Origin: Cyanidiococcus yangmingshanensis
Lineage: Eukaryota > Rhodophyta > Bangiophyceae > Cyanidiales > Cyanidiaceae
NCBI GenBank assembly: GCA_013995675.1
Contig: VWRR01000001.1
Location: 930,001-994,000 of the forward strand
Length of the DNA: 64,000 nt
Direction: 5' to 3'
In this document: positions 23,754-28,315 of the stretch, piece after piece
Position numbering within the stretch: position 1 is the first letter of the stretch
Layout: each line of letters begins with the position of its first letter
Program-made: the position numbers and the translations under genes
The notes under the pieces: model-generated
Database searches by the model: none
Told to the model about the DNA's origin: nothing
Seen by the model: only the letters and a program-made list of their open reading frames with translations

Positions 23754-24065
23754 TCGTCACCCCTCAACGCTCCGAAAGCATCAACACTGCAGCACGTCCC
23801 AATAAAAAAGAGTCCATTGCGTCACATTCCTAAAACGACTTGCATCCTGATCCGAAATCGAATGAAAAGTGCTTTTCATACACTCAAGTCTAGGAGTGTG
23901 CACGTGGACGTGCATTGGGAGGTTCCCTCATCTCCAGCCTTCTTGTTCGTCAACGGAACGGGTTTCGCACCAATGCTGCTCGTCTCGGCTGACTCGTTCC
24001 CGAGAAAGGAACTCGAGCTGTCCAATTGCTTGTCTATATATACCAATTTTGCGCGCATTCCCTCT

Positions 24066-24161
24066 GTCGAGAAATTCCCGCCGTCTCCAGTTCCAACGGG
24101 GACGTGGCTTAGGGGTTATAGCGCCCGCTTTGCAAGCGGGAGGACGCGGGTTCGATACGAC
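24066..24161 (+). tRNA. Permuted tRNA-Ala(UGC) gene (3' half upstream of 5' half)
   Basis: The 5' half runs 24098-24156: acceptor GGGGACG, D-arm, anticodon arm CCCGC-TTTGCAA-GCGGG (anticodon TGC at 24131-24133), variable AGGAC, T-stem GCGGG and loop TTCGAT. The sequence after it cannot pair to finish a tRNA. The missing 3' half lies upstream at 24076-24089: T, CCCGC (T-stem), CGTCTCC (acceptor) and discriminator A. It pairs fully with the 5' half and gives the G3-U70 wobble that identifies tRNA-Ala. Eight bases (gttccaac) separate the two. The halves sum to 59 + 14 = 73 nt with a normal 7-nt T-loop. The junction forms a bulge-helix-bulge: GCGGG/CCCGC, bulge ATT, AGAA/TTCG (one A-G mismatch), bulge ATA, then GTCG/CGAC. 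Cutting after the second bulge base gives exactly 59/60. CCA is not encoded. Confidence 0.92.
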
Positions 24162-24168
24162 TCTTTTT
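24161..24168 (+). terminator. Candidate RNA polymerase III T-run terminator
   Basis: Five Ts follow the permuted tRNA precursor directly (cTCTTTTTc). Runs of four or more Ts end Pol III transcripts, so the primary transcript would just include the CGAC strand of the bulge-helix-bulge. Confidence 0.5.
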
Positions 24169-24732: not shown

Positions 24733-25130
24733 TTACGGCGGGAGACACCGCGTTCTATGCTCGGGCTCGAAGAGGACTCGGTTGCGCCTCCTCTCGACGA
24801 CGGTAATCGTCTCTGCGCTGAATGATGAGACGCGTACCAGCCGAGTGTGTATCGGGGAGCGCATGCCCTGGAGAAGTGCCTCCAACTCGGACTCGATCAC
24901 ACCTCCTGCGCTTGAGGCAAACACTTTCTCATCCGTCGTAGTGCTGCAACATTCGACCAGAACCGTTCTGGGTGTACTGAACTCAGTCGATCGGTTCGTG
25001 GCGCTGCCGATCAAGCACATCCCTGTCCCGAATGAATGTCGAGCCAGAACCCCTCCTCTATGTCTGATGACTTGGGCGGCCTCTTGGAACGCAAGTCGGG
25101 TTGCAGACAGCGTCGTCTTTTGGACAGCCT
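24733..25130 (-). CDS. Uncharacterised protein-like segment downstream of the lipase
   Basis: An open reverse-strand frame, distinct from that of the lipase C-terminus, reads coherent protein: EAVQKTTLSATRLAFQEAAQ, VIRHRGGVLARHSFGTGMCL, TVLVECCSTTTDEKVFASSA and VIESELEALLQGMRSPIHTR. No family is recognised. A stop codon precedes it at about 25137 and no clear ATG opens it, so it may be a separate broken gene or the true end of the upstream gene after an indel. Confidence 0.35.
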
Positions 25131-28100
25131 CGAGCGATCATGCTGCCCGTCCCCATTCGTGAACACGATCTCCACCCTGACTGTCCATGGATTGCCATAG
25201 AAAAGAGTGGTACGCGTTCGTCCTCGTCGAGATCGCTTTCGTCTTCGCTGCGGTCCGAATCCGAGAAGGCGAAACTGAGCTCTCGCATAGCCTGGCGAAA
25301 GGCGTTAGACTCAGATAGAGGCGTCTCTGAGGTCGCGTCGACCCCGCTTTGACGATCGTTCGGCGTCGTGCCCGGTGTCCAAGGCGATGACGGTGTCGGA
25401 TGATCACCGCACCAAGGTACCTGAAGCAGTTCGCTCATCCAGGAGGTGACCTGTCCGACTGCCTCCGCAGCCTTGCGAATGGCACCGCTCATGCTTAGAA
25501 AGCCATGCGGCATGCCGTCGTAGACGCGCAGCCGAACCCATTCCACGCCATCCTTGTCGCGCTTCACGAGACGCAAACGATGCGCGAATACCGCCGAATC
25601 GTCTAGTAACGGGTCGTAGGAGCCACATATCATATAGACTGGGGGAAAGGCCTCGAGCAACGCGTCCGAAGCAGCGATAGCACGGGCTCAGACACGGATC
25701 GCGGCTCGCATCCACGTCCGCTGGAATATACGATTGGAGAATCAATTCTAGCAAATCGATAGAGAGCAGCGGGTCAAAAGCCGACATCAGACGCGACGGC
25801 GACCACTGAAGCGTTAGGTTCAGGGCCGGATAAGCCAGTATAAGCCCGTCCGGGATTCGCAAACCATGTTCAATGATCTGAATCGTGACTGCAACAGCAA
25901 GGTTGCCACCAGGCGCTATCCCCAGCGAGAACAACCCGCTCGGCCCGGGTCCCCAGACGGTCTGCATGCTCGAGTGCCCAGACGTACCCGTGCAGACACT
26001 CGTTCACCGCAGTCGGGTAGGGAAACTCTGGTGCTAGTCGATAGTCAATGGACAGAACGACCGCATCCTGCACGTCATGCGCTATCTGTTTCAACAGGCT
26101 CGTATGCGTGAGGGAGCTCTGTCCAATGAAACCGCCCCCGTGCATAAAGATAATCAGGGTTCGTGCCGGCTCTCCATGGACACGGCTCCGCAGTAGGAGG
26201 TCGATCCTGGCGCCCAAGGTCCGCATAGAGGCACTGATTGCGGATGTTAGACGCGAACCTGACGGTTCTCGTCGCATGATGGGCCTTTTCCGTTCTATCT
26301 TGAGACGAGACGGATCCATGGTTGAACGGCAGGCGTCTGACGGCGCCTGAGACGTAGTTTCTCTCTTGTTCGGTAGCGACGCAGGCATTTCTGGCTCAGC
26401 GCGTCCTCCGAAGCGAGTCACTTGTATTGGCTCGTCACGGTCAAGCTTCTGGTCCAGTTCACACTCGGCTTTTTCATCGACGGCAACAGGCGCATTGTGC
26501 TCCAGAGGAGGAGTCGCATTCGCAGTGTTCGGCATCGAAGGTTGCGGCAGCAGGTTTGCATGGGGGACTCGTTGCAAAAGTGACGCCGTCTTCGGCTGGC
26601 CCCTGACCGAGGCCGCTCAAGAGATACCGATGCATCCCGACCTGTCCACGTCGTCGACGAGTCCGCCACATACACGATCTGCTCGTCCTCTTCGTATGCT
26701 GCTTGCCAGCAATCCGCATCGACGGTTGTCGGAGGACGAGGCCGATCGACTCGCTGTGGCGCCGCTTTCAGCAGTTTCCTCTCTTGCCCATAGAGGGCGA
26801 AGCACGGGATAGCTCTACCTGCGCAGGGCGCGATGCGTACGAAAGCAGTCGGACTTTAATGGGGCCGTCCAGCGAACTCGGCACCTGCACCCGACATGGG
26901 CCCCGCTCAGGATCCAATGGAGCCAGCTGGCCCTTCCAACCACACGTCTGCTTTGTAGCGTTGCCGTGCGGGGCCCGGCCTCGCGAAAGCATTTCGAGGA
27001 CGTGTTTCATCGTTTCGGCAGCGTTGGTGATCTCGAAGTAACGGTCGAGCGCCACCTCCTTGTCCCGCATCAGCGCAAATCCCATGAATATGGGGTCCTC
27101 TGATAAGTTGAAGAACATGCGTGCCTCGTCGAGGCTCACCAGCGCTGGGCGTAATGATGACTCAGTCGAGCTTGTCTCGCGGTCCTCGGACAGCCAGCTC
27201 ATGGTAGAGGGATTCGCTCCGAATGTGTTGGCGAGCTTTTCAATGATCTGCTGAGCCGAACTGGTACTGTACCCGTAGTTCTCTAACAGCGCTAGATGGA
27301 TGTAGAACCAGCCCCAGGATAAAAAAGCGATTTTGCGGGCCAAGGTACTCTTTCGAAAGTACTCACTGGAGACAGCGCGATGAACAGCACTGCGAATCAC
27401 CTGAACGATGCGCAGGACAGTTCTCACGTCGCGATTGTATTGAAACCCGAAATGAACTCCTCGGAAACTGTCCAGTTTCACCGCTGGTGCCCATACCCGA
27501 TGGTCAAACTCGGCCTCGTGGGGCACAAAAAGCGTACGGGCGACCTCGCTCTCCTGAACGCATCGACAGGCGAGATGGATCATGGCATAGAACTGTTTCA
27601 GTTGGAGATGATGGCCAGCGAGACGACCCAACGGAGTTAGCTGGTTCGCACTTGTGCGTTGAGCGAGCCATCGACGTTCTAGCTCCCGCCAGTCCAATGG
27701 AGTCGTCGTGTTGAGACCAAAGTCCGCGAAGACCCTCGGAGAGCGCCTGGAAGCACGCTGTCGCGCCCGTCGTTCCGTCGCTTCGCGGTTTGTCAAGGCG
27801 GTTTCCACCTCGAGTCGCTGCAGCAGGTGCCAGATGATACACAACAACGATTCGTAGCCGTTTCCGGGGCTTCCGTGTGCACCGCCCCAGCCGCGACCCA
27901 CGAGCGGCGATCGACGCCGCAAACCACCAGCTTGACCTGCAGCGTCACAGACAGTCGTTGGACTGGAGTCTGACTCTGTCTCAGTCGCGTTATAGAGCGA
28001 TAACGAGGGCTCGCCGGCGACCACCGCTAGGAGGCGTTCCACCTCGGGGAAGATGGCATCGCAGGTTAGTTTGAGCGCTTCGGCCTCTCGAGAAACGCTC

Positions 28101-28315
28101 TGGGCTATAACAAAGGCTCGAGTACTCCTCCTCAAGGGACTAGGTCCTGAACCGGAGACTTGTTCTTCCTCTGCGGGTTGGCGCAACAACCACCCTACTT
28201 TTGAAGCCAGCTCGGCTGCTGACTCGCGTACAAACACCAAACTAGAGCGCACATTCTGCGTCAGTGCTAGTGTATAGGCTACGTACGGTCCATCACTCGT
28301 TTCATTCGTCGACAT
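25058..28315 (-). CDS. Hormone-sensitive lipase homologue (HSL_N plus alpha/beta hydrolase)
   Basis: The N-terminal 515 codons (28315-26768) are intact and resemble the HSL_N domain of hormone-sensitive lipase (FHALNLxxx-type helices; here GVHFGFQYNRDVRTVLRIVQ, KIAFLSWGWFYIHLALLENY). A polar linker follows, then a catalytic alpha/beta hydrolase of the HSL/arylacetamide group: the oxyanion motif FMHGGGFIGQ near 26150, nucleophile elbow GDSA-GGNLAVAV near 25910, acid segment ICGSYDPLLDDSAVFAHRL near 25600, and base DGMPHGFLSMSG near 25505. All triad residues are present. Frames change near 26750, at 25912 inside the GDSAGG elbow, and near 25690. The role inferred is neutral lipid or ester hydrolysis in the cytosol or at lipid droplets. 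The C-terminal 80 residues (acidic SDSDRSEDESDLDEDE) look variable. Confidence 0.75.

Follow-up and report, generated by a model that had tools for sequence, protein, structure and literature searches.

A circularly permuted tRNA-Ala(UGC) gene is found at positions 24076-24156 of the window, the 64,000-nucleotide stretch of DNA analysed here, which corresponds to bases 930001-994000 of the first contig in an assembly of 12,072,675 bases and 20 contigs. The gene is real, and the observation made in the first-pass annotation is confirmed: the 3' half lies 5' of the 5' half on the same strand, and a full cloverleaf is obtained once the two halves are swapped. The locus comprises the following elements.

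24034..24049, plus strand: upstream promoter element CTATATATACCAATTT, whose first base is 42 bases upstream of the 3' half and which has one mismatch to CTTTATATACCAATTT
24066..24075, plus strand: leader side of the bulge-helix-bulge, with GTCG of the outer helix, AGAA of the central helix and AT of the ATT bulge
24076..24089, plus strand: 3' half of tRNA-Ala(UGC), positions 60-73, 14 nt, TCCCGCCGTCTCCA, with no CCA encoded
24090..24097, plus strand: intervening spacer GTTCCAAC of 8 nt between the acceptor-stem ends, which processing is expected to remove
24098..24156, plus strand: 5' half of tRNA-Ala(UGC), positions 1-59, 59 nt, anticodon TGC
24157..24161, plus strand: trailer side of the bulge-helix-bulge, with the final base (A) of the ATA bulge followed by CGAC
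24164..24168, plus strand: TTTTT, a run read directly that is a probable RNA polymerase III terminator

When swapped, the halves give a 73-nt sequence that ARAGORN identifies as tRNA-Ala(tgc). In the restored tRNA the acceptor stem has 7 bp, one of them the G3-U70 pair (g+t at 3-70), and the T and anticodon stems have 5 bp each; no acceptor pair (7 of 7) or T-stem pair (5 of 5) is lost across the split. Coordinates and ARAGORN thus agree with the initial description of permuted halves with pairing arms, a G3-U70 pair, a length of 59 + 14 = 73 nt and an 8-base spacer. ARAGORN predicts no tRNAs in the window in its native order, and the Rfam tRNA model scores 29.7 bits over 24098-24165, next to a gathering score of 29. 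Permuted genes are missed or merely grazed by ARAGORN or the Rfam tRNA model alone.

The sequence CTTTATATACCAATTT is an upstream element common to many tRNA genes of this genome. With up to three mismatches, it occurs at 52 places in the genome, versus 33 for the reversed pattern, and CTTTATATNNNNATTT with one mismatch occurs at 50 (24 when reversed). The two patterns combined yield 76 places. Those listed precede 18 of the 21 tRNA-model loci by no more than 250 bases, an agreement that is not independent because the consensus was read from those same loci; of the remaining 58 places, 12 pointed to tRNA genes that could be identified by eye. The shared element could be a useful handle for locating split and permuted tRNAs. 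At the tRNA-Ala(UGC) locus, the TATA-like element is located within about 50 bp upstream and a T-stretch is located downstream, and neither falls in the 8-nt spacer. Permutation leaves the internal B box interrupted (GGTTCGATACG), and GGTTCRANYCC, the pattern used to search for this box, has no match at the locus among the 100 of 150 genome places listed. A broken B box fits the use of an upstream promoter. The TFIIIC B-block subunit family has no matches in the genome, a weak negative given that the control matched 8 of 14 prokaryotes. Transcription from upstream promoters has been proposed for the permuted tRNAs of Cyanidioschyzon merolae (PMC3978253), and the promoter element, T-run and broken B box of the present gene fit this model.

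The sequences flanking the gene can be drawn as a bulge-helix-bulge. In the outer helix, GTCG (24066-24069) pairs with CGAC (24158-24161) at 4 of 4 positions. In the central helix, AGAA (24070-24073) faces TTCG (24151-24154) with 3 of 4 pairs, where the A at 24070 and the G at 24154 are unpaired at one end. The bulges, ATT and ATA, are 3 nt each. With bulges fixed at this size, 947 of 200,000 random flanks pair equally well. Folding of 24066-24161 gives an energy of -30.8 kcal/mol when constrained to the bulge-helix-bulge, versus -35.3 kcal/mol for the best fold, in which a shifted 6-bp helix, GTCGAG/TTCGAT, forms instead. Pairing probabilities at the locus are 0.03 for the central helix and about 0.43 for the outer helix; the central helix CGAA/TTCG of a permuted Lys(TTT) gene in the same genome reaches 0.86-0.99. 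The flank pairing and the 3-nt bulges are as originally described, but the motif had also been called complete, and this word is too strong because one central pair is an A-G mismatch and a different fold is lower in energy. The exact junction is also subject to interpretation. The letters for A58 and T59 are present on either side of the cut, and positions 58-73 of the restored query match the upstream piece, so that the letters permit a junction at 57/58, 58/59 or 59/60. The proposed 59/60 junction, ambiguous by two bases on this basis, is the one that bulge geometry and C. merolae precedent favor.

It is extremely improbable that the locus reflects a chance resemblance or a misassembly, and no evidence in favor of either emerged. 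Both strands of the window were scanned for type IV permuted tRNAs (U8, U33, GG in the D loop, TTCRA, a spacer of 0-80 and 21 possible pairs), which is the kind of permutation-tolerant search that the first-pass annotation had recommended. The only place with at least 19 pairs has exactly the coordinates of the tRNA-Ala(UGC) gene, with 20 pairs. None of 300 first-order Markov windows equals this score, and one hit reaches 19; also, the same arrangement has been published independently for a related genus (PMC3978253). It is very unlikely that the locus is a dead relic, that is, a rearranged and unexpressed tRNA-Ala gene, with GCA and GCG codons decoded by other alanine tRNAs. The imperfect bulge-helix-bulge is in keeping with decay, and Ala(AGC) and Ala(CGC) genes (L013 and L036), both G3-T70 as read by eye, are present in the genome. 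However, the split leaves every acceptor (7) and T-stem (5) pair intact, the promoter element and T-run are retained, and the same type and spacer length recur in C. merolae (PMC3978253). Moreover, when the restored 73-nt sequence was used to search the genome DNA (E up to 10, with common words skipped by the tool), the only matches were the two halves at their own locus, at 100%. This search detected neither a second UGC copy nor an ordinary contiguous tRNA-Ala(UGC) gene of identical mature sequence, the finding that had been named at the outset as counting against a permuted gene.

Alternately, the gene might be expressed and permuted, but cut without the bulge-helix-bulge as drawn, either because the endonuclease recognises a relaxed structure or because the junction is at 57/58 or 58/59. 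The 6-bp helix GTCGAG/TTCGAT of the minimum-energy fold, the two-base junction ambiguity and the various bulge-helix-bulge types present in C. merolae (PMC3978253) make this conceivable. Nonetheless, the drawn geometry places a 3-nt bulge on each side at the 59/60 junction known from publication, and the frequency of random flanks that equal it (947 of 200,000) argues in the same direction. We regard cutting without the drawn motif as unlikely.

We are highly confident that the locus represents a functional circularly permuted nuclear tRNA-Ala(UGC) gene of the red alga Cyanidiococcus, the counterpart of the C. merolae type IV (59/60) tRNA-Ala(TGC) gene. The gene is very probably functional, and a circular RNA is very probably the means by which the order of its halves is corrected. 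RNA polymerase III probably initiates from the upstream TATA-type element and would end at the T-run. The linear precursor would then fold with leader and trailer flanking the T loop, and cutting, joining and circle formation would presumably follow, with the spacer GTTCCAAC expected to be excised between the acceptor-stem ends. For C. merolae, permuted tRNAs are indeed described as maturing via a circular intermediate, as the first-pass annotation had stated; circular intermediates were detected by RT-PCR and sequencing, and the products were aminoacylated, in an account that does not single out the alanine tRNA where these experiments are reported (PMC3978253). The genome contains the following candidate processing genes, two of them of the splicing-endonuclease type.

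Contig C6, 417326-417559: endonuclease-type gene, PF01974
Contig C20, 206592-206837: endonuclease-type gene, PF01974
Contig C5, 165663-166977, minus strand: RtcB ligase locus, with matches in two overlapping frames that indicate an intron or a frameshift

At least seven further permuted tRNA genes are found in the genome, each with 7 of 7 acceptor and 5 of 5 T-stem pairs. They come from a partial survey, read by eye with acceptor and T-stem pairs checked by script, that covered 100 of 150 B-box places listed and 68 promoter loci (L057 and L058 only in part), with one batch of 20 regions left out. Six of the seven (L015, L161, L020, L032, L155 and L087) have anticodons that are also permuted in C. 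merolae. The genes are as follows, with tabulated C. merolae values in brackets.

Lys(TTT): type IV, spacer 38 (38)
Arg(CCT): type IV, spacer 36 (23), D-loop intron of 28 nt (27)
iMet: type III, spacer 21 (74)
Thr(AGT): type II, spacer 24 (24)
Leu(CAG): type II, spacer 12 (9)
Gly(CCC): type II, spacer 7 (7), T-loop intron of 16 nt (13)
Glu(CTC), locus L160, contig C6, 158353-158462, minus strand: type II, spacer 23, T-loop intron of 15 nt read as 59/60

A permuted Glu(CTC) is absent from the C. merolae table (PMC3978253), and this gene with its T-loop intron is the newest element of the set and the one most worth following. Leu(TAA), Gln(CTG), Thr(CGT) and a second Gly(CCC), which are permuted in C. 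merolae according to the same table, were not found in the partial survey. A DNA query with Thr(AGT), Leu(CAG) and Leu(AAG) matched nothing beyond the three genes themselves, with neither Thr(CGT) nor Leu(TAA) among the results. Two B-box matches on the minus strand of contig C10 (364979-364989 and 365076-365086) are 97 bases apart and possibly belong to tandem tRNA genes. The Ala(CGC) gene mentioned above (contig C8, promoter at 156492, plus strand) is contiguous, and by eye has apparent introns in the D arm and T loop.

The Glu(CTC) intron can form a TTCG/CGAA clamp against the T loop, as is found at the type IV junction of Lys(TTT), and the clamp is present in a mismatched form at Ala(TGC). 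Perhaps these algae continue to gain or lose permuted genes, although we consider this doubtful. If true, T-loop introns and type IV permutations would share one recognition site, and intron-bearing genes could yield permuted ones when a duplication is followed by the loss of the outer parts.

Most of the published C. merolae set of swapped tRNAs is also present in the related genus Cyanidiococcus, and spacer lengths are equal in both genera for Ala (8), Lys (38), Thr(AGT) (24) and Gly (7). A shared set in which some spacer lengths are identical argues that the permutations were already there before the two genera separated. The extra Glu gene and the differing spacers (21 versus 74 for iMet) show change since that separation. 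Permuted tRNAs in Cyanidiococcus are the subject of no paper that we found in the open-licence literature: in PMC13353863, the relevant words are confined to the reference list, and the tRNA annotation of C. yangmingshanensis described in PMC10496412 used default tRNAscan-SE, with no mention of permuted genes in that description. Because Cyanidiococcus is transformable (PMC13353863), editing of the only UGC alanine tRNA gene detected could test why cells retain the swapped form.

The repeat AATGGGGGG, searched as an 18-base double unit, has 95 forward and 49 reverse matches and none in the reversed control, and the 100 matches listed are all no more than about 220 bases from a contig end. C. 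yangmingshanensis is reported to have a genome of 12.0-12.1 Mb in 20 contigs with the telomere repeat AATGGGGGG, and C. merolae has the same telomere repeat and a genome of 16.5 Mb (PMC13353863). Elsewhere in the window, a kinase encoded at 33489-34775 matches a C. yangmingshanensis protein at 100% (rounded), and the window's eukaryotic genes speak against a prokaryotic or viral source. On the minus strand, 25058-28315 has matches to hormone-sensitive-lipase-like and alpha/beta-hydrolase proteins that run in order through four overlapping frames, and this region may contain introns, frameshifts or a decayed gene.

Soma et al. (Science, 2007) reportedly described a type IV permuted tRNA-Ala(TGC) of C. 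merolae 10D. That alga has 11 permuted tRNA genes, among which Ala(TGC) is listed as type IV (59/60) with an 8-bp intervening sequence and no intron (PMC3978253, Table 1). The Cyanidiococcus gene is likewise type IV with a 59/60 junction, an 8-bp spacer and no intron, so the comparison with the C. merolae set that the first-pass annotation had suggested reveals a gene that shares type, junction and spacer length. The two also have in common the anticodon, an upstream TATA-type element and the lack of an encoded CCA. They belong to different genera, however, and their likeness is drawn from tabulated architecture rather than from sequence letters.

The type IV Lys(TTT) and Arg(CCT) genes of C. 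merolae and of this genome similarly have a T-loop junction, an upstream element and a T-run, but their spacers are longer than that of the alanine gene (38 nt for Lys in both algae; for Arg, 36 nt in this genome and 23 in C. merolae), and Arg(CCT) contains a D-loop intron. Outside of the red algae, the type IV iMet and Tyr genes of the archaeon Thermofilum pendens also have a 59/60 junction and short spacers, of 7 and 1 bp (PMC3978253). In contrast to the algal gene, they are archaeal, encode CCA and carry anticodon-loop introns (PMC3978253). By its architecture, the tRNA-Ala(UGC) gene described here is the apparent counterpart of an already published gene, and not an isolated case.
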